Source of the DNA: Virgibacillus dokdonensis
GTDB lineage: Bacteria; Bacillota; Bacilli; Bacillales; Amphibacillaceae
NCBI RefSeq assembly: GCF_900166595.1
Contig: NZ_LT745763.1
Coordinates: 981,600-1,028,319, forward strand
Direction of reading: 5' to 3'
DNA: 46,720 bases
Shown: positions 28,601 to 39,186 of the stretch, in pieces
Layout: each line of letters begins with the position of its first letter
How positions within the stretch are numbered: position 1 is the first letter of the stretch
Position numbers and translations under genes: made by a program
Notes under the pieces: model-generated
The model's database searches: none
Seen by the model: the letters and a program-made list of their open reading frames with translations, nothing else
What the model was told of the DNA's origin: nothing

Positions 28601-29086
28601 TTAATTTCCAGATAAATGCAAGCCAACCTGTGCAAGTAAGGCACTGCCTGCATATGTTCCTGTAAAAACAAAGACGGCTACGATTGCAACTTTCCATGAA
28701 GTATTTCGTAAATCAACAAGACGATTTGCAACAGATATACCCGCAAAGGTTAATATTGGTGTAGTTATTGAAAGAAAGTCAACTGCTTGAATTGCTTGGA
28801 CAAAAAAATCGGATAGTAAACATAATAAAAGCGAGGTAATCGAAACCCAGCCTAAGATCGGGAAATTGCGAATAAATTTCACCGAGGATTTCTGCATAAT
28901 AGTAGAAATGAAAATACCAATCATTGAAAATAGCCACAATACACCAAGACCAGCAAAGGTCATCGTTGTTATAGGCGTTGACTCAGGGTTTTTTATCAAT
29001 TTAATTTCCATTGTAAACAAAATTAATGCTACACTTAAGAGAAGGATCAGACCATATTTGACATATTTATTTTTTGGTATACTCAT
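28601..29086 (-). CDS. Small membrane protein, partner of the DUF3100 protein
   Basis: This 161-residue protein has four to five hydrophobic segments and no recognised catalytic motif. Its ATG overlaps the stop of the DUF3100 gene (ATGA), with GAGGTGA inside that gene, so the two are translationally coupled. Coupled unequal membrane proteins suggest a two-component carrier. I do not recognise the family with certainty. Together with the M20 hydrolase upstream it may serve uptake of an acylated or aromatic amino acid. Confidence 0.6.
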   Translation of the reverse strand: MSIPKNKYVKYGLILLLSVALILFTMEIKLIKNPESTPITTMTFAGLGVLWLFSMIGIFISTIMQKSSVKFIRNFPILGWVSITSLLLCLLSDFFVQAIQAVDFLSITTPILTFAGISVANRLVDLRNTSWKVAIVAVFVFTGTYAGSALLAQVGLHLSGN

Positions 29087-29874
29087 TTTTTATCACCTCG
29101 AACTAGTTTCTTATACATAAATGCTTGAATAGGCGCAGCTAAAAATACCATTGTAAAGGTGCCAAGAAAACTAGTGAGAAGTTGGCTGGCAGAAGCATAT
29201 GCAAGAATGGTGCTTTCCATTTCAGGGATGCGCGCGACTAATGTTGCTGATGCTGCACTCATCATACTACCTGATCCCACACCAGATGCCATAGCTAGTG
29301 CTTCAATTCGGATTCCTAAATCGAGTAAAATTGGTGCAAAAACGCTAAAAAAGATAGCCCCAAATAATGTTCCAATAATGTAGATGGAAAGAACGCCCCG
29401 ACCTTCTTTAGATTCCAATGTGTACTTTTCTGAAATATATGCAAGCTCTCCCTCACGGCCAATTCCTAACGTAGCACCAATTGCTTCTCGGCGTAAACCT
29501 AACAAAATAGCAACTGGTAACCCGATGAACACCGTTCCTAAATTACCAAGTTCTTGAATAACAAATACCCAACCGACCTGCAAGATGTCTCTAATTTGTG
29601 GTGCGACATCCGCTCCGTATCGTGCCATTAAAGGGAGCATAATTAAAATCAGGTATGTGCTAGCAAAATGAATGTTCTTTTCACTGTATATTTTTTTCAT
29701 GATTCCTTTACGAAATAATTTCAGACCTAAGAACATCGTTAATATAATGGCAAAAACTAAAGGAAGTAGTCCAATTGTAAACGGTCCTAATGGTATAGCT
29801 TGAAAACCTATTAATTCGGAGATGGTAATAATAACTAATGCAAAAGCGATTAAAAAAAGTAAGTTTTTGTTCAT
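29083..29874 (-). CDS. DUF3100-family membrane protein
   Basis: This integral membrane protein of about 263 residues has some seven to eight hydrophobic helices. A conserved hydrophilic stretch GREGELAYISEKYTLES then GRGVLSIY lies in the middle and fits the DUF3100 family. The last third has a Gly/Ser-rich SGVGSGSMMSAASA segment typical of substrate paths in carriers. The function of the family is not known; a transporter role is inferred from its coupled position between an M20 amidohydrolase and a second small membrane protein. ATG at 29874 with TGAGG 6 nt upstream is preferred over an ATG at 29886 inside the upstream stop. Confidence 0.65.
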   Translation of the reverse strand: MNKNLLFLIAFALVIITISELIGFQAIPLGPFTIGLLPLVFAIILTMFLGLKLFRKGIMKKIYSEKNIHFASTYLILIMLPLMARYGADVAPQIRDILQVGWVFVIQELGNLGTVFIGLPVAILLGLRREAIGATLGIGREGELAYISEKYTLESKEGRGVLSIYIIGTLFGAIFFSVFAPILLDLGIRIEALAMASGVGSGSMMSAASATLVARIPEMESTILAYASASQLLTSFLGTFTMVFLAAPIQAFMYKKLVRGDKK

Positions 29875-29882
29875 GTTCTGCC

Positions 29883-31169
29883 TCATTTCTTTGTTGGGTT
29901 GGAGTTATTTTGAACAATGGAAGCGATTAGTTCTTGATAAGCTTTATAGCTTTGTTTATATAGCTTTGCTTTGTCAATGCTTCCACTCATTTGTTCCAGT
30001 ACTTGTGCTAAAAATCTCGGAAATATCTCGTAAATAAACGTAGGATCGACATCTATAAAGTCATCTCCATGGATGGTTCCGGTAAAGCCGCTATAGCCAA
30101 TTTGTATACATGGCATTATAAAGGAAAGGTCGCCTATATCCCCTGCAGCACTAATAAAGTTACCATTTAGTATTTCATCAATTTCAGTGTTTTTATGGAA
30201 TGCTGCTTCAACAAATGTGGATAGATACCTATCTTGTACGAATGGTAAATAGCCCATTTGTGTATCAATCGTTACATTTCCTTGTAGAGCCATGGCACTT
30301 CCTTTCGCCGCATCGTCCAATTTTTCCGCTGTCTCTTTTAAATAGTCTACAGATTTGGTTCGCAAGTCTGTTCCTACTACGATGTGATTAGGGATAACAT
30401 TTGTAGACATATCCGATTCCATAATGATTGGATTAATTCGAACATGCTCTGACTCTTTTAATTGTTGACGACTAAGTCCGATTGCAGTATTAAACAGCGT
30501 CGACATATGATACGCATTCTTAGAAGAAAATGGATCAAATCCAGCATGTGTAGCTTTACCTTCAAAAGCGTATTTTTTGTATAAAAAACCAGCTAAATCG
30601 CAATTAATTTCAATGGTTCGTTTAGAAAATTCTCCGCCAATGGCATGCACACATATACTTAGGTCGATGTCATCAAAAACACCTAGTTTCATAGCTTCTG
30701 GTTTCCCACCATAATGACTAATTTGACCTTCTTGTAACAATTGCTGACGGTAGGTTAAATCTAAGTATTCTTCTGCGGGTACAAAAACGAATGTTAGTTT
30801 GAAATCTAAATTTTTATATGCTTTTGTCTTAAAGAAATATTGATAGAGTGCTAGAGCTATCGCTATTTGTGAGTAATGACCGCAGTTATGGGCTGCTCCT
30901 GTTTGCTCATCAGCATACATATGGGTAGGTGCATAGACTGCATCTAATTCAGCGATAAAAGCAATGTGTAAATCATCTGTTCCTTTAGTTCCTAAGCTTG
31001 TCTTAAAACCAGTTAAACTAAAATTTTCAATGTCAATATTAGGGTTTACTGCCTTTAAATAATCAATGACTTGTTTTTTTGTACGTTTTTCTTTATATCC
31101 AAGTTCAGGATGGTAATAAATATCCTCAGCGACCTGTTTTATGGCTTCATATTGTTGTTTAAATTGCAT
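29883..31169 (-). CDS. M20-family amidohydrolase (AbgB/HipO-like)
   Basis: This cytoplasmic metallopeptidase-like amidohydrolase of 428 residues has probable metal ligands in AHNCGHYSQ (about residues 93-101), the Glu pair in FVPAEEY, and a lid domain starting near KATHAGFDPF. This family removes acyl or aminobenzoyl groups from amino acids or cleaves dipeptides. The AbgB-type layout is suggested by ELDAVYAPTHMYADEQTGAAHNCGH, of which only the flanks matter. First gene of a coupled operon with two membrane proteins, it likely hydrolyses what they import. The ATG has GGGGG upstream. Its promoter faces away from the purine riboswitch. Confidence 0.75.
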   Translation of the reverse strand: MQFKQQYEAIKQVAEDIYYHPELGYKEKRTKKQVIDYLKAVNPNIDIENFSLTGFKTSLGTKGTDDLHIAFIAELDAVYAPTHMYADEQTGAAHNCGHYSQIAIALALYQYFFKTKAYKNLDFKLTFVFVPAEEYLDLTYRQQLLQEGQISHYGGKPEAMKLGVFDDIDLSICVHAIGGEFSKRTIEINCDLAGFLYKKYAFEGKATHAGFDPFSSKNAYHMSTLFNTAIGLSRQQLKESEHVRINPIIMESDMSTNVIPNHIVVGTDLRTKSVDYLKETAEKLDDAAKGSAMALQGNVTIDTQMGYLPFVQDRYLSTFVEAAFHKNTEIDEILNGNFISAAGDIGDLSFIMPCIQIGYSGFTGTIHGDDFIDVDPTFIYEIFPRFLAQVLEQMSGSIDKAKLYKQSYKAYQELIASIVQNNSNPTKK

Positions 31170-31394
31170 TTGGATGCCCCCTGTAAAATATGTCGAAAAA
31201 ACACGAATTTATCTTATCACTATGTTGAAAGTTCGTCAATAACGAATATTTTTAAGTATATACGTTTTATTGTTCGTTTTTTAATTGTTTGATAAGTGGG
31301 AAACAAGGTAATATTTGATTTTTGCAACAAATTAACATAGGGTTGTTTTTTTAGAAATGAATGTTATACTTATCCCATTCAAATTAAATCGTAA

Positions 31395-31466
31395 CTTTCA
31401 TATAATCGCGGGGATATGGCCTGCAAGTTTCTACCGGTTTACCGTAAATAAACTGACTATGAAAAA
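31395..31466 (+). ncRNA. Purine riboswitch aptamer, guanine/xanthine-type
   Basis: The aptamer core is readable directly. P1 is TTTCATA (31396-31402) with TATGAAA (31458-31464). Next come TAATCGCGG, the L2 GATATGG, GTTTCTACCGG in J2/3, L3 ACCGTAAAT and the closing AACTGACTATGAA. The specificity base is C (31457), not T, which in this family selects guanine, hypoxanthine or xanthine over adenine. The sequence is very close to the xpt-pbuX guanine aptamer of Bacillus. It precedes an NCS2 permease operon. Confidence 0.93.
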
Positions 31467-31516
31467 GGTATGGCTTATGCTATTATGGCATAGTCTATTC
31501 TTTGTTATTTCGTTTT

Positions 31517-31573
31517 AAAAGTTCGGAATACATTGCTTTTTCATGGAAAGGCAGTGTATTCCGAACTTTTTTT
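31517..31573 (+). terminator. Riboswitch expression platform: intrinsic terminator
   Basis: A 20-bp stem AAAAGTTCGGAATACATTGC / GCAGTGTATTCCGAACTTTT (one G-U) is followed by a run of U. CTTTTTCAT at 31536-31544, in the terminator's 5' stem end and loop, is a perfect complement of ATGAAAAAG at 31459-31467, the 3' strand of P1. Ligand binding would free the terminator, giving an OFF switch. Confidence 0.88.
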
Positions 31574-31580
31574 ATGGTCT

Positions 31581-31875
31581 AGGAAATTATAAAATTTTGC
31601 AGCTGTGGATAAACTAACTAAGTTATTTAGCCACGTCCGGCTCCAGCGCCCAGCAACTAGGCGACTTCACGAAATCGCCTTACGATAAGTCATCATCGGT
31701 TCGTTCCTCACCGTGATTCCTAAAACTTTCGTTGATTCGTTCCAGTCGCTACGTTGCTAACCGGGCGCTTGCGCCTTTGTTCCACTATAGGAAAGTATAA
31801 AAGTTTATAGTATAAGAAAAACTACACCTTTCGCCATAGGACTTGGCGACAAGCCAAGTTTTTCTAATTCTATCC
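31581..31875 (+). repeat. Mosaic intergenic repeat, copy 2, between riboswitch and permease
   Basis: It starts AGGAAATTATAAAATTTTG and carries GCCACGTCCGGCTCCAGCGC, the core CCAGCAACTAGGCGACTTCA, and AGTCATCATCGGTTCGT. The 3' block is TTTCGTTGATTCGTTCCAGT, then GGCGCTTGCGCCTTTGTTC. It is followed by TATAGGAAAGTATAAAA and the hairpin ACTTGGC-GACAA-GCCAAGT with TTTTTCT (31841-31865). The latter resembles a second terminator ahead of the permease. Confidence 0.8.
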
Positions 31876-31930
31876 GTGTATGTTCCAATAAGAGGATGCT
31901 AGATGGAGATATAGGAGAAACACCTACTGT

Positions 31931-33367
31931 ATGGGACAATCAACTAGACAAAGGGGACAACAAAGAATGAAATCGTTACTCGAAGAAGACCAATTTCAGC
32001 GTAATCAACATCTATCTAAGCAAGAAAGACCACGAGTTTTAAAGTCACTTATGATTGGTTCACAGCATGTTTTAGCAATGGATTTGTTTATTCCACCTAT
32101 TATTTTAGCTGGGCTTCTGTCGCTTTCTGTCGCAAATACAGCATTACTTATTCAAATGACATTTCTAGCTTGTGGTATTGCTACGGTGATACAAGCAGGG
32201 TTTGCAATGAAGCTACCTGTTATGCAGGGCCCTTCTTTTATACCATTGAGCGCTTTAGCAGCAATTGGAACTACCTCTGGACTAGGCGCTATGATTGGTA
32301 GCTTGATTCCTGGGGCCATATTGATTGCTTTGTTAGGCTATCCTTTCCGAATATTCAGTAAAATAATTCAATCTTTTATACCGAAACTTGTTGCTGGAAC
32401 AGTAATTATTGTGGTGGGTGTTGCATTAATGCCAAGCGCCATTCAATCAATTTATACTGCTTCAGGTCATTTTGGCACGAATGTTTTCATTGCTGCTTTG
32501 AGTATGGGAGTGTTAGTAGTATGTATTTATATAGGAGAAACATTTATCAGTTTTAAGTTTGTGAAATTGTTTTCAGTTATTCTCGCCTTAACTATAGGCA
32601 CAGTCGTAGCTTCATTCTTTGGTATGTTGGATTTTTCATCGGTGTATACAGCTAAGTGGTTTGCAATGCCACATCTTTTTGCTTTCGGTGTCCCCACCTT
32701 TGAATGGGAAGCGATTATGATTGTGACTTTTCTTTATTTTATTATTATGATTGAAACAACAGGCACCTGGTTTACCGTTAGTAATGTGACTGGACAGCCT
32801 CTTGATGATAGACGTTTAAATGGCGGAGCATTAGGAGAAGGTATTGGCTGTTTAATAGGCGCTTGCTTTGGTGGTACATCTGTTACTGGCTATTCTTCTA
32901 ATGCTGGGGTAGTAGCTATTACTGGTGTGAAAAGCCGTTATCCGGTGATAGCTGGAGGAATTATTTTAATTGCATTAAGCATGATGCCTAAAATAATGAA
33001 TGCTATTGCCAGTATCCCGGCTCCAGTTGTTAACGGTGTGTTCGCTTTAGTCTGTGTCGTCATTATGATGAACGGATTTCGAGTGGTAAAAGATATCCCG
33101 TTTTCTGAACGAAATATGTTAATGATTGGCATCCCAATTATGTTAACGTTGTTTACAATATTTTTACCAGCTGAAATTATTGAAAAAATGCCAGACATAA
33201 TTCACTATTTATTATCTTCAGGAATGGCGGTTGGGGTTTTAGCAGCAGTTATATTAAATAAACTGCTACCTGAAAAAACAAATCATATAATACGAAATGT
33301 AAATAATAAACCATTAACAAATCATGTAGATAAACATTATGAAACGATCACTGGAGGAAAAAGATGA
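31931..33367 (+). CDS. NCS2 / nucleobase-ascorbate transporter family permease (xanthine/uracil/urate type)
   Basis: This 478-residue permease has about 12-14 hydrophobic segments. It shows the NAT features LPVMQGPSFIPLSAL in TM3 and the signature region GYSSNAGVVAITGV, plus the acidic IMIETTGTWF in TM8. The substrate should be a nucleobase or similar ring; the guanine-class riboswitch upstream argues for a purine. The start may be ATG at 31931 or ATG at 31967 (AAAGGGG upstream). The stop overlaps the next start by 4 bp. An inserted repeat and a terminator-like hairpin lie between riboswitch and gene, so control may be altered. Confidence 0.85.
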   Translation: MGQSTRQRGQQRMKSLLEEDQFQRNQHLSKQERPRVLKSLMIGSQHVLAMDLFIPPIILAGLLSLSVANTALLIQMTFLACGIATVIQAGFAMKLPVMQGPSFIPLSALAAIGTTSGLGAMIGSLIPGAILIALLGYPFRIFSKIIQSFIPKLVAGTVIIVVGVALMPSAIQSIYTASGHFGTNVFIAALSMGVLVVCIYIGETFISFKFVKLFSVILALTIGTVVASFFGMLDFSSVYTAKWFAMPHLFAFGVPTFEWEAIMIVTFLYFIIMIETTGTWFTVSNVTGQPLDDRRLNGGALGEGIGCLIGACFGGTSVTGYSSNAGVVAITGVKSRYPVIAGGIILIALSMMPKIMNAIASIPAPVVNGVFALVCVVIMMNGFRVVKDIPFSERNMLMIGIPIMLTLFTIFLPAEIIEKMPDIIHYLLSSGMAVGVLAAVILNKLLPEKTNHIIRNVNNKPLTNHVDKHYETITGGKR

Positions 33368-34725
33368 AACAAACACTTTTAAAAAATGGATATATTATTT
33401 CAATGAATGCAAATAGAGAAGTATTTGTTCACGGAGATGTTCTCATTGAAGGCAATACAATCAAAGCAGTTGGGCATGTTACAAAAGACAGCATTCACGA
33501 TGATGCCGATGTAGTAGACGTTACTGGGAAAATGGTTATGCCAGGTCTTATCAATACGCATGTTCATTTGTCACAACAACTAGGTAGGGGCATTGCAGAT
33601 GATGTGGATTTACTAACATGGTTGCGTAAACGAATTTGGCCATATGAAAGCAGTATGACAGAGGAGGAAGCGTATATTTCAGCCCTTGCTTGTAGTATTG
33701 AACTTATTAAATCAGGTGTTACGACTTTGGCTGAAGCTGGCGGTCATCATGTAGATGCATTAGGAAAAGCGGTCAAAGAAGTTGGACTTCGGGCTATTTT
33801 ATCACGCTCAACCATGGATATGGGGGAAGGATTGCCATTAAATTGGCAGGAAACAACAAATGATGCATTGAAAAAACAAGAAGCACTTATAGAGAAATGG
33901 CATCATACTTCTGACGAGCGAATTAAAATGTGGTTTGGTTTACGTACTATATTTAATTGTTCTGATGATTTAATAAGACAAACAAAACAATTAGCTGATC
34001 AATATGGAGTTGGTATTCATATGCATGCAGCAGAAATAATGGATGAAATTCGTTATACAAAGGAACAACGTGGTGCTTCAACTATTGAGCATTTACATAA
34101 ACTTGGTTTATTGGATGAAAACTTGTTAACAGCACATATGGTTTGGCTAACAGATCGAGAAATGGATCTTGTGATGTTACATAACGTTAAAGTTTCCCAT
34201 AACCCAGGTGCAGCAATGAAGGTGCTCGGTTTTGCCAGAATTCCAGAAATGCTGGAAAAAGGAATCGATGTGTCCATTGGTACAGATGGCGCGCCCGCAA
34301 ATAATCGTATGGACATGATGGACGAAATGTATGTAACATCACTCATACATAAAGGAAGAACATTGGATACAACGACTGTTCCCGCTGAGCAAGTCCTAGA
34401 AATGGCGACTGTAAAGGCAGCGAAATGTTTATTGTGGGATAGGGAGATTGGTTCATTGGAGCAAGGAAAAAGGGCTGACCTCATTATTATTGACCCTAAA
34501 CAAATAGGAAGTTTCCCCATGCATGACCCGATTGCCAATATCGTTTATTCCATGCATGCAAGCAATGTAGAGTCTTCCATGTGCAATGGGCAATGGTTAA
34601 TGAAAGATCGAAACATTTTAACCGTCAATGAAAATGAAATAATAGAGACAGCTCAGCAATTGGCGGAAGGTGTTGTGAAACGTGCAGGCATCCATTTAAA
34701 GGAACGCTTCCTGCATGTAAGGTAA
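33364..34725 (+). CDS. TRZ/ATZ-family amidohydrolase (8-oxoguanine/guanine/SAH-deaminase-like)
   Basis: This 453-residue metal-dependent hydrolase of the amidohydrolase superfamily has metal ligands in NTHVHLSQQ (HxH), IHMHAAE, TAHMVWL and the Asp of GTDGAPANNRMDM. The family deaminates or dechlorinates N-heterocycles (guanine, 8-oxoguanine, S-adenosylhomocysteine, isoxanthopterin, triazines). Given a purine riboswitch and a coupled nucleobase permease (ATGA overlap), a purine-ring deaminase is the best guess; the exact substrate is unknown. It is distinct from the nucleoside-deaminase-type GuaD of B. subtilis. Confidence 0.82.
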   Translation: MKQTLLKNGYIISMNANREVFVHGDVLIEGNTIKAVGHVTKDSIHDDADVVDVTGKMVMPGLINTHVHLSQQLGRGIADDVDLLTWLRKRIWPYESSMTEEEAYISALACSIELIKSGVTTLAEAGGHHVDALGKAVKEVGLRAILSRSTMDMGEGLPLNWQETTNDALKKQEALIEKWHHTSDERIKMWFGLRTIFNCSDDLIRQTKQLADQYGVGIHMHAAEIMDEIRYTKEQRGASTIEHLHKLGLLDENLLTAHMVWLTDREMDLVMLHNVKVSHNPGAAMKVLGFARIPEMLEKGIDVSIGTDGAPANNRMDMMDEMYVTSLIHKGRTLDTTTVPAEQVLEMATVKAAKCLLWDREIGSLEQGKRADLIIIDPKQIGSFPMHDPIANIVYSMHASNVESSMCNGQWLMKDRNILTVNENEIIETAQQLAEGVVKRAGIHLKERFLHVR

Positions 34726-34788
34726 GGAGTGTTTCAGGAAAAACGTTTTTGTAAAAATAACTCAACTATTAAACAGAAGGGGATTTGT

Positions 34789-35796
34789 ATGAAAAAAGAT
34801 CGATTATGGCAGGAGTGGCATCCAGTTTTAAAGGAAACGGAATTACACGAAGATCCAAAGCAAGTTCACATTCTTGGAGAAAGAGTAGTTTTATTTCGAA
34901 ATCAAAAGGGAGTTCATGCATTTAAGGATTTATGCATTCATCGAGGTGCAGCATTGTCTTTAGGGAAAGTAAAGAATGGGAATATTGTTTGTCCATATCA
35001 TGCTTGGGAGTACAATGATGAAGGGATATGTGTAAAAATACCTGCCCTACCATGCGAGCGTGCCATTCCACAAAAGGCGAAAGCCACGGTATATCATTGT
35101 CAAGTGTATGCGGGATTAATTTGGGTAAACTTAAGTGAACAGCCTTTACCATTATTAAACTATCTAGAATATAGTAGAGAAGGATATCGGACTGCTATTT
35201 GTGGCCCTTATAAAGTGAGTGCTAACGCACCTAGAGTCATTGAGAACTTCCTTGATATTTCGCATCTTATGTTTGTTCATGGTGGTTTATTGGGAGATGA
35301 GGATCATGCTGAAGTGCAAAATTATGATGTTACGTTTGTTGATGGTCGTTTTATCACAAGTGAAATACCAATCTATCAGCCCAATCCAGATGGTCGTTCA
35401 GTAGGTGGCTATACGGACTATGTATATGAAATACTTAATCCTACTACAGCTCGTTTTACCAAATCAGTTGAGGGTTCAAGTGAAGAATTCATCGTCCTCA
35501 TTACAGTCGTACAAGAAGCGGATGAACAAACAAAAGTGTTTATGCTATTAACTAGAAACTATGATTTAGATAAGCCGGATGAACCATTTGTGGAGTTTCA
35601 AGATCTAATATTTAAACAAGATTTAGATGTGGTTGAAAGCCAGAAGCCTGAGTTATTGCCGTTAGATTTGCAAGCCGAAATGCATTTGAAATGTGATGCT
35701 TTAACCATTGCTTATCGTCGCTGGTTAGATGAACTTGGCATAGAAACCGGAACTACTCCTAATTATCGAAAAAAGCGTGAAATAGTACCATCTTAA
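34789..35796 (+). CDS. Rieske non-heme iron oxygenase (catalytic alpha-subunit type)
   Basis: This 335-residue protein has an N-terminal Rieske [2Fe-2S] domain: CIHRGA and CPYHAWEY (about residues 49-72, C-x-H ... C-x2-H). A C-terminal catalytic domain has the mononuclear iron motif ENFLDISHLMFVH (about 145-157). These enzymes hydroxylate or demethylate ring compounds using a separate reductase, which is not encoded in this window. Known precedents acting on purines are the hypoxanthine oxygenase HpxD and the caffeine N-demethylases. The start at 34789 has AGAAGGGGA; a GTG 20 codons upstream lacks support. A terminator follows. Confidence 0.88.
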   Translation: MKKDRLWQEWHPVLKETELHEDPKQVHILGERVVLFRNQKGVHAFKDLCIHRGAALSLGKVKNGNIVCPYHAWEYNDEGICVKIPALPCERAIPQKAKATVYHCQVYAGLIWVNLSEQPLPLLNYLEYSREGYRTAICGPYKVSANAPRVIENFLDISHLMFVHGGLLGDEDHAEVQNYDVTFVDGRFITSEIPIYQPNPDGRSVGGYTDYVYEILNPTTARFTKSVEGSSEEFIVLITVVQEADEQTKVFMLLTRNYDLDKPDEPFVEFQDLIFKQDLDVVESQKPELLPLDLQAEMHLKCDALTIAYRRWLDELGIETGTTPNYRKKREIVPS

Positions 35797-35813
35797 TGAT
35801 CTTGAAAAATTAA

Positions 35814-35870
35814 AGTCCGATCTACCATTTGAGATTCTTTGAAATATGAATGATAGATCGGATTTTCTCT
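35814..35870 (+). terminator. Terminator of the permease/amidohydrolase/Rieske operon
   Basis: Stem TCCGATCTACCAT / ATGATAGATCGGA (one mismatch) with TTTTCTCTT after it. Confidence 0.85.
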
Positions 35871-35921: not shown

Positions 35922-36164
35922 TAAGAAAGTATAAAAATTAGATGCTTTGGGGTAATGAATTAACAGAATAAGCCACGTCCGGCTTCAGCGCCAGCAACTA
36001 GGCGACTTCACTCCATTGCCCTAAGATAAGTCATCATCGGTTCGTGCTAAATAGGAAGACCGACTAAAAACGGGCTTGCCTTAGTGCGTCGGCATACCCC
36101 TGTAAAACATTAGTTGATTCGTTCCACTCGCTACGTTGCTAAACGGGCGCCCCGAGCCTTTGTT
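35922..36164 (+). repeat. Mosaic intergenic repeat, copy 3
   Basis: It begins AAGAAAGTATAAAAATTAGA and has GCCACGTCCGGCTTCAGCGC, CCAGCAACTAGGCGACTTCA, AGTCATCATCGGTTCGTGCT, GCCTTAGTGCGTCGGCATAC, GTTGATTCGTTCCACTCGCT and an end at GAGCCTTTGTTTA. It is the best match to copy 1 across its whole length and has the same orientation as copies 1 and 2. Confidence 0.85.
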
Positions 36165-37793: not shown

Positions 37794-38675
37794 CTATTTT
37801 AAAATACCAGTGGCAGTAAGTTGTTGTTCTAGTGTATCCCATTCCATTTTTGTTAAGTTCTGTATTGGTAGACGGACATCTCCAACCGTAATGCCTAGCA
37901 TATTTAGAGCACTTTTAACCGGAGCCGGACTTGACTGAGCAAACATTGCTTTCATTATTGGCAGTAATTTTTGGTGCGATTTTGCGCTTGTGGTGATGTC
38001 ACCATTTCTAAAGTGCTGGATCATTTCCTGCATTTGGTTACCAATAATATGAGAGGAAACGGATACAATGCCATTTGCACCAATGGCAATGGCAGGTAGC
38101 GTTAAGCTATCATCTCCACAGTATAAAGTGAAACTATCTGGAGTGTTAGAGATTATGGTTGTCATTTGATCTAAATTACCACTTGCTTCTTTAACCGATA
38201 CAATATTCTCTATGTTAGAAAGACGATTGATCGTATCCGCTTCCACTTGGACAGAAGTTCTGCCAGGTACGTTATAAAGCATTATTGGTAAATGTGTTGC
38301 GTTAGCAATCGTAGCAAAATGCTGATAAATACCTTCTTGAGAAGGCTTGTTGTAGTAAGGGGTGACAAGCATAATTGCGTCGACACCAGTTTTTTCAGCC
38401 AGCTTGGTTAATTCAATGGAAGCTTTCGTATTATTAGAACCTGTTCCGGCTATTATTTTTGCTCGTCCTTTAGAAACTGTAACTACATGTTTAAATAAAG
38501 CTATTTTTTCATCATTGGTTAACGTTGGTGATTCTCCAGTAGTACCAGCAATAACTAAGCTATCCGATCCATTTTCAATTAAGTAGTTGACAAGTTTTTC
38601 AACGGCATAAAAATCAATATTTTCGTTGTTGTCAAATGGTGTTACCATTGCAGTGATAACTTGGCCAAAATTCAT
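37794..38675 (-). CDS. dapA: 4-hydroxy-tetrahydrodipicolinate synthase
   Basis: This 293-residue class I aldolase-type enzyme condenses pyruvate with aspartate semialdehyde in lysine and diaminopimelate synthesis. Hallmarks are the GTTGESPTL motif, the catalytic Tyr in YNVPGRT and the Schiff-base Lys in SVKEASGNL. The start at 38675 is chosen because the frame upstream runs into the riboswitch terminator and AAGGGTGTGAAG lies before this ATG. Expression is expected to be repressed by lysine through the riboswitch. The gene stands alone rather than in a dap/asd operon. Confidence 0.93.
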   Translation of the reverse strand: MNFGQVITAMVTPFDNNENIDFYAVEKLVNYLIENGSDSLVIAGTTGESPTLTNDEKIALFKHVVTVSKGRAKIIAGTGSNNTKASIELTKLAEKTGVDAIMLVTPYYNKPSQEGIYQHFATIANATHLPIMLYNVPGRTSVQVEADTINRLSNIENIVSVKEASGNLDQMTTIISNTPDSFTLYCGDDSLTLPAIAIGANGIVSVSSHIIGNQMQEMIQHFRNGDITTSAKSHQKLLPIMKAMFAQSSPAPVKSALNMLGITVGDVRLPIQNLTKMEWDTLEQQLTATGILK

Positions 38676-38728
38676 TACTTCACACCCTTTTTTAAAATTA
38701 TAGTGTAGGTAACAAGGCAATTTTGTCC

Positions 38729-38766
38729 GCAAAAAAGCAACAGCGACGGCATATCGCTGCTGCTTT
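38729..38766 (-). terminator. Lysine riboswitch expression platform: intrinsic terminator
   Basis: On the minus strand AAAGCAGCAGCGA pairs with TCGCTGTTGCTTT (13 bp, one G-U) and a U tract follows. It lies between the aptamer and dapA, consistent with transcription attenuation by lysine. Confidence 0.88.
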
Positions 38767-38791
38767 GAAAGTTTAAAAGCTTCATGCGTCT

Positions 38792-38962
38792 AGATAGCCC
38801 TCCATATAGTTACCTATATGACAGTCCTGTATTTGTTCAATAGCAGAACCAGCTGTAGAAGTAATGAGTTCTCTACAACTTCGGCAAAGCACCCTTTTCA
38901 CTATTTTCCATGGATCTCATTATCCTCCAATAGTGTACTTTTGAGCCTCGCACCTCTATCCT
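38792..38962 (-). ncRNA. Lysine riboswitch (L box)
   Basis: Read on the minus strand, the conserved elements appear in order: GGATAGAGGTGCGAGG at the 5' side, CAAAAGTA, GGTGCTTTGCCGAAG, CAGCTGGTTCTGCTATTG, GACTGTCATATAGG and the closing GGAGGGCTATCT. The last pairs with GATAG to form P1. The length is about 170 nt. It precedes dapA and an intrinsic terminator. The assignment rests on motif order and context. Confidence 0.92.
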
Positions 38963-39186
38963 TATTTCAATAACATTTTGAAATAGGAATATATTCGATT
39001 GTCTGTACTATAGCAGATTTCTCCTTGTTATGCAAGAACACTTTTTACGTGTTTTATCTATATAAAATGCCTAAGATTAGCATACTTTGGTCCATTATCT
39101 ATTATAGAATTGAAATCTAATCTAAGGCGTGCTTGCAAGCCACCTTTTGTCTAAAGTTCTTGATCTAGGCTTTAGCTAAGTGATAC

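Follow-up and report, generated by a model that had tools for sequence, protein, structure and literature searches.

Among the riboswitches of the guanine class, the variants for 8-oxoguanine and xanthine (xanthine-II) share the common RNA scaffold, accompany purine-degradation genes and have altered cores, and the 8-oxoguanine variant follows an ON logic. The NMT1/xanthine riboswitch, built on a different RNA motif, works as an OFF switch, and the genes associated with it include HpxD-like Rieske genes (available part of Yu and Breaker, 2020, PMC7373994). The present work concerns a stretch of 46,720 nucleotides of Virgibacillus dokdonensis (positions 981600-1028319 of contig C15 in the 4.6 Mb genome G000), hereafter called the window as a whole, in which a guanine-class riboswitch precedes the genes of an NCS2 purine permease, an amidohydrolase and a Rieske oxygenase. 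Comparison of related loci indicates that riboswitch, permease and Rieske gene are the minimal unit of a real regulon, which is conserved and belongs to a known riboswitch class, with a purine as the predicted substrate of the oxygenase. A guanine riboswitch-Rieske regulon was not found described in the open-access library searched, a coverage that leaves out most subscription papers; the one paper retrieved there, PMC7373994, deals with another riboswitch. The operon and the elements of its leader are listed below.

31378-31479, forward strand: purine riboswitch aptamer with guanine-type core (RF00167, 85.0 bits, gathering threshold 37, E-value 4.8e-14)
31458-31467, forward strand: 3' strand of P1, predicted to double as the 5' side of the antiterminator (folding of the truncated transcript gives 10 pairs with 31536-31545)
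31504-31531, forward strand: putative inner antiterminator helix, 31504-31512 with 31524-31531 (10 pairs in the truncated-transcript fold)
About 31517-31570, forward strand: intrinsic terminator, T run to 31574 (fold of -33.6 kcal/mol)
31931-33367, forward strand: NCS2 purine permease, PbuX-like (PF00860, 237 bits; TIGR03173, 356.8 bits, below its cut-off of 414.15); by eye, the start is perhaps at 31967, behind AGGGG
33364-34725, forward strand: TRZ/ATZ-type amidohydrolase, predicted purine or nucleoside deaminase (PF01979; ATGA overlap with the permease gene)
34789-35796, forward strand: Rieske oxygenase of the SxtT/NdmA group (PF00355 and PF19112)
35812-35866, forward strand: operon terminator (fold of -19.6 kcal/mol, z -2.73, one of 200 shuffles reaching this value)

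Related loci were obtained by a contig scan with a Rieske alignment, and the best 80 (L004-L083) were kept. Those with at least 67% identity (25 loci, L004-L028; L024 and L028 come from two strains of the same species) are referred to as the relatives, and the other 55 (L029-L083) as the sister group. The order riboswitch, permease, Rieske gene was found in 24 of the 25 relatives, the sole exception being Halalkalibacter wakoensis (L027). Aptamers were detected by a text pattern in 20 of these loci and by Rfam in four further ones. The 24 loci carry 14 genus names: Virgibacillus, Ornithinibacillus, Oceanobacillus, Niallia, Salinibacillus, Neobacillus, Cytobacillus, Sporosarcina, Robertmurraya, Rummeliibacillus, Bacillus, Allobacillus, Alkalibacillus and Gracilibacillus. 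Barring Rieske, permease and guanine deaminase genes, every other gene cluster around the 25 loci is common to three loci at most. Nine of the 80 loci had a stop inside the matched stretch and were removed, which left 71 loci for a Rieske tree; the window and two second copies were added to these. In this tree the 25 riboswitch-linked sequences (window included) form a single clade (99/94), which requires one label change. Linkage in 24 of 25 loci over 14 genus names, together with the single clade, makes it unlikely that riboswitch, permease and Rieske gene are associated by chance. No aptamer was recovered from the 55 sister-group loci with the text pattern, nor from two of them with Rfam.

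The preliminary description of this DNA had proposed a three-gene set of NCS2 permease, ATGA-coupled TRZ/ATZ amidohydrolase and Rieske oxygenase, ended by one terminator. This gene order was confirmed in the window, and its synteny stands for riboswitch, permease and Rieske gene but not for the amidohydrolase, which lies between the two other genes only in the window and in V. chiguensis. Being present in the locus of just 1/25 relatives, it was rejected as a core part of the operon. A divergently oriented guanine deaminase gene faces the riboswitch in 18 of the 25 loci; the four locus proteins tested all exceeded the cut-off of TIGR02967. The same holds for 17 of the 25 genomes surveyed as a whole, which comprise the window genome and 24 others (the genome of L021 was left out); 24 of the 25 bear the riboswitch unit. 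The window and V. chiguensis loci are without the divergent guanine deaminase and have the amidohydrolase, and the Allobacillus and Alkalibacillus loci have neither. Split matches concerned the permease in L005 and the guanine deaminase in L019, each in two pieces.

Among the NCBIfam families shown, the window amidohydrolase reached no curated cut-off. Its best match was PRK07228 (5'-deoxyadenosine deaminase) with 448.3 bits under a cut-off of 522, and the guanine deaminase model TIGR02967 gave 174.9 bits against 375.4. The named proteins among its 120 best matches listed (of 5654) come mostly from anaerobes (Clostridia, Cetobacterium, Fusobacterium and Desulfovibrio kin) and one from Paenibacillus, with at most 68% identity. 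Since these relatives are mostly in anaerobes, the Virgibacillus gene was probably acquired by gene transfer.

The RF00167 match covers model positions 1-102 of 102, that is a full-length aptamer with a complete three-way junction. The core elements of the window aptamer are canonical (TATAAT, GTTTCTACC, ACCGTAAAT and GACTATG). Across 25 aptamers the core is invariant or nearly so, and the specificity C of J3/1, which we take to be C74, is retained in all 25. The leader (31385-31580) folds at -65.3 kcal/mol, compared with a mean of -37.15 for shuffled sequences (z -6.83), and none of 200 shuffles was as good. The partner of the P1 3' strand (31536-31545) is the upper arm and loop of the terminator, so that the aptamer/terminator state (OFF) and the antiterminator state (ON) are predicted from folding to exclude each other. 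The C-type aptamer and the OFF logic of the preliminary description were thus borne out. The OFF arrangement recurs in 24 of 25 leaders, the script having found no terminator in L006. An equivalent of the inner helix occurs in all 24 terminator-bearing leaders, but at least six pairs also formed in 533 of 960 shuffles, so that this helix is weakly supported.

Score, core and mutually exclusive folds place the riboswitch in the guanine class RF00167, with guanine binding and repression as predicted properties. It resembles the xpt type of Bacillus subtilis in its aptamer score, its core and the OFF logic of its terminator, and differs from the known type of its class in controlling a Rieske oxygenase. 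The 8-oxoguanine and xanthine-II variants depart from their class in the core, whereas the window riboswitch has the canonical core in an OFF arrangement. The leader gave no Rfam match to the NMT1/xanthine riboswitch, and only RF00167 and RF00168 reached the gathering threshold in the window. As far as the available part of PMC7373994 goes, the NMT1/xanthine riboswitch is alike in being a purine OFF switch associated with genes for Rieske enzymes, transporters and deaminases or amidohydrolases, but it is another RNA motif, with likely translational control and xanthine or urate as ligand. This precedent weakens the earlier remark that an OFF switch on a catabolic set is unusual.

The window Rieske protein is 98-99% identical to the V. 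chiguensis copy. Its nearest matches were SxtT and GxtA, followed by the lower-scoring methylxanthine N-demethylases NdmA and NdmB of Pseudomonas putida CBB5, with which dicamba monooxygenase ties by fold. SxtT and GxtA hydroxylate a tricyclic scaffold (available part of PMC8752792). NdmA and NdmB share with the window protein the Rieske and SRPBCC/VanA_C architecture, the fold (30-32% identity over the aligned fold) and the position of a Gln/Asn residue. Unlike them, the window enzyme is linked to an NCS2 permease under riboswitch control, and no NdmD-type reductase was found for it. The reductase postulated earlier was searched for in the window genome, and none of its three PF00175 proteins (CysJ-like, flavohaemoglobin-like and PyrK-like) is of the VanB or NdmD type. 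Domains and fold agree with membership in the N-demethylase group, purine N-demethylation being the predicted activity of the window enzyme, and the earlier idea of a purine-related Rieske enzyme gains support. A second Rieske gene, 48% identical, was seen in Paenibacillus rigui (L126, 8492-9550) within an allantoin-pathway cluster, flanked by genes for a TRZ/ATZ-type amidohydrolase and an OHCU decarboxylase.

The absence of standard purine-degradation genes noted for the window holds for its whole genome, where neither xanthine dehydrogenase (PF02738) nor uricase (PF01014) was detected. The genome-wide PF02738 search was confined to the 25 survey genomes, to which the sister-group genomes G025-G036 do not belong. 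Among the 24 riboswitch-bearing genomes, PF02738 is absent in 16 and PF01014 in all 24 (0/25 surveyed). OHCU decarboxylase is absent in 19, as is a candidate urate hydroxylase dependent on flavin adenine dinucleotide (FAD), and 19 lack all three of these urate-step markers (PF01014, OHCU decarboxylase and FAD enzyme). Xanthine phosphoribosyltransferase exceeded its cut-off in 22 of the 24. OHCU decarboxylase was present in the 12 sister-group genomes examined. Over 37 genomes, the 18 that are OHCU-positive fall exactly into two groups without overlap, five having PF01014 and 13 the FAD enzyme; the latter was found in exactly the 13 OHCU-positive, PF01014-negative genomes. In Robertmurraya its gene lies between those of OHCU decarboxylase and hydroxyisourate hydrolase. 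The FAD enzyme (L131, 8818-10260) had no NCBIfam match at 1e-20 and is possibly an HpyO-like urate hydroxylase of bacilli, no direct comparison with HpyO having been made. Gene complementation of this kind earlier revealed a urate oxidase (available part of PMC4562309). As each of the 18 OHCU-positive genomes has one or the other of the two enzymes, the urate step seems to be filled without the Rieske protein.

In many leaders a further element may act on the switch. A GATTATATGAAAAAC-like stretch between terminator and permease gene is complementary to the aptamer P1 5' strand and J1/2 in 14 of 25 leaders (L005, L006, L008, L009, L011, L013-L017 and L019-L022; p<=0.015 against shuffles, p-values being rough as terminator ends were set crudely in this test). 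With better terminators, a comparison over 27 loci from 12 genomes (3/30 loci gave no row, the pattern being unmatched) yielded such complementarity at p<=0.02 in 6/9 Rieske-type versus 0/18 other purine leaders. The stretch might hold the read-through message open as a latch of the ON state; it may instead serve as a site for a protein or as a second promoter. The window leader has no significant complementarity (p 0.27 in the 25-leader and 0.20 in the 27-locus test), perhaps owing to a dispersed repeat that lies here.

31630-31795, forward strand: copy of the dispersed repeat, between terminator and permease gene
31343-31370, forward strand: candidate sigma-A promoter read by eye (TTGTTT-16-TATACT), start expected near 31377

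The candidate promoter was not in the list of a consensus promoter scan. The best match of that scan (31378-31406) was dropped, being the aptamer's own TATAAT of J1/2.

The explanation that we propose, to which we give about even weight, is a feedback-controlled purine acquisition operon in which guanine represses both uptake and the oxidative trimming of a modified purine for salvage. With guanine (or hypoxanthine) in good supply, the ligand would bind the nascent leader, P1 would close, the terminator would form and transcription would halt. Under guanine scarcity the P1 3' strand would pair with the terminator arm, letting the polymerase continue into the permease and Rieske genes. The permease would then bring in a modified purine base, and the Rieske enzyme, with electrons from a general ferredoxin or flavodoxin system, would oxidatively remove or alter its substituent, most likely an N-methyl group. 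The resulting normal base could be salvaged by guanine deaminase and phosphoribosyltransferases. In Virgibacillus the amidohydrolase would have joined the operon, perhaps replacing the missing guanine deaminase. At the level of sequence the analysis establishes the aptamer and its OFF architecture, the order of the genes and their conservation, the subfamily of the enzyme and the absence of the searched purine-degradation genes; the ligand in the cell, the substrate, the reaction, the electron donor and the gene transfer are what we infer. The OFF architecture with a canonical core suits an acquisition repressed by its own product. Of the readings considered, salvage of a modified purine under guanine scarcity, already suggested in the preliminary description, gives the best fit. 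Its companion idea of a new purine catabolic route is not supported, the unit being mostly in genomes devoid of xanthine dehydrogenase, PF01014, the FAD candidate and OHCU decarboxylase, and the amidohydrolase not belonging to its conserved genes; yet allantoinase exceeded its cut-off in 12 of the 24 riboswitch-bearing genomes, the window genome not among these, which weighs against pure salvage.

The same allantoinase count favours an HpxD-like ring hydroxylase, forming xanthine from hypoxanthine or urate from xanthine as a substitute for xanthine dehydrogenase. Xanthine would come from guanine deaminase, as the divergent gene would provide; PF02738 is absent in 16/24 genomes, and HpxD-like Rieske genes elsewhere accompany a purine OFF riboswitch (available part of PMC7373994). 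We regard this role as rather unlikely: 19/24 genomes are without the three urate-step markers searched (the genome-wide searches did not extend to HpxO, PuuD and hydroxyisourate hydrolase), and 22 of the 55 sister loci contain a xanthine dehydrogenase molybdenum subunit gene, which would leave no need for another xanthine hydroxylase there. A xanthine-to-urate role would add nothing where xanthine dehydrogenase is present and would probably lead nowhere in most genomes with the riboswitch; a feeder role, from modified to ordinary purine, fits both riboswitch-bearing and sister groups.

It is more doubtful still that the enzyme hydroxylates or dealkylates some other modified purine or purine-like compound (an oxidised purine, an N6-alkyladenine, a pterin or a plant alkaloid) for detoxification or nitrogen rather than guanine recovery. 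The tricyclic substrate of SxtT and GxtA (PMC8752792, in the part available) and the broad TRZ/ATZ type of the Virgibacillus amidohydrolase are in keeping with it, as is a sister group made up mostly of Paenibacillus, Cohnella and bacilli with BMP transport genes (BMP lipoprotein gene in 43 of 55 loci). A canonical guanine-type aptamer in OFF mode is, however, most simply read as a guanine-related product or need. Very remote is a non-homologous urate hydroxylase in place of uricase, which the lack of PF01014 in all 25 genomes and the P. rigui copy between deaminase and OHCU decarboxylase genes might suggest. It was set aside, as PF01014 and the FAD enzyme jointly account for all 18 OHCU-positive genomes; OHCU decarboxylase, moreover, is missing from 19/24 riboswitch-bearing genomes. 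We put forward tentatively, at below even chances, an aerobic route of purine recovery in bacilli, not described so far, in which methylated bases from nucleic-acid turnover are taken up by an NCS2 importer and turned back into guanine or xanthine by a Rieske N-demethylase. The route would be under guanine-riboswitch feedback, and many of its leaders have a further downstream strand that pairs with the 5' half of the aptamer and could lock the ON state.

Some observations concern the surroundings. The dispersed repeat (about 155 nucleotides) had at least 45 matches in the genome, at least 40 of them near full length (40 of 249 first-look candidates were scored), and no Rfam match at gathering within the window. 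A second window copy at about 35975-36150 was not in the genome match list. The full copies on contig C15 look as though they followed the direction of replication: all 22 on the plus strand are located below 1.92 Mb, and 14 of the 15 on the minus strand above 2.47 Mb. Upstream of the operon, divergent genes (28601-31169, reverse strand) for an M20-type peptidase or amidohydrolase, a DUF3100 protein and a small protein without Pfam match recur, among the 25 loci, in V. chiguensis only. An ordinary lysine riboswitch (RF00168, 125.5 bits; 38787-38966, reverse strand) precedes a gene (37794-38732) read by eye as dihydrodipicolinate synthase.

Divergent purine aptamers were also seen in other genomes. 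Those of Niallia (G005 and G013; L142, 149-247, 63.8 bits, and L143, 165-264, 73.3 bits) have a P1 3' strand that is the terminator's own arm, an ON design (folded for L142, by eye for L143); they stand ahead of an amidohydrolase gene and resemble the 8-oxoguanine-type variants. The gene behind the L142 aptamer codes for an amidohydrolase (PRK07228, 728 bits against a cut-off of 522) 36% identical to that of the window. In Cytobacillus oceanisediminis an aptamer (L138, 8153-8250, reverse strand, 66.5 bits) upstream of a gene clustering with xanthine dehydrogenase 2Fe-2S-like proteins is perhaps a xanthine-sensing variant.

Two logics of purine switches thus appear side by side, product-repressed uptake in the Rieske set and apparently substrate-induced degradation in the Niallia ON variant. 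For a Gram-positive Rieske clade that is still uncharacterised, the range of likely substrates is narrowed by a riboswitch whose class has a known ligand, together with a conserved partner gene. If the enzyme does demethylate modified bases, this would reveal what becomes of some methylated purines when RNA and DNA are turned over, and purine N-dealkylation oxygenases would occur outside Pseudomonas.
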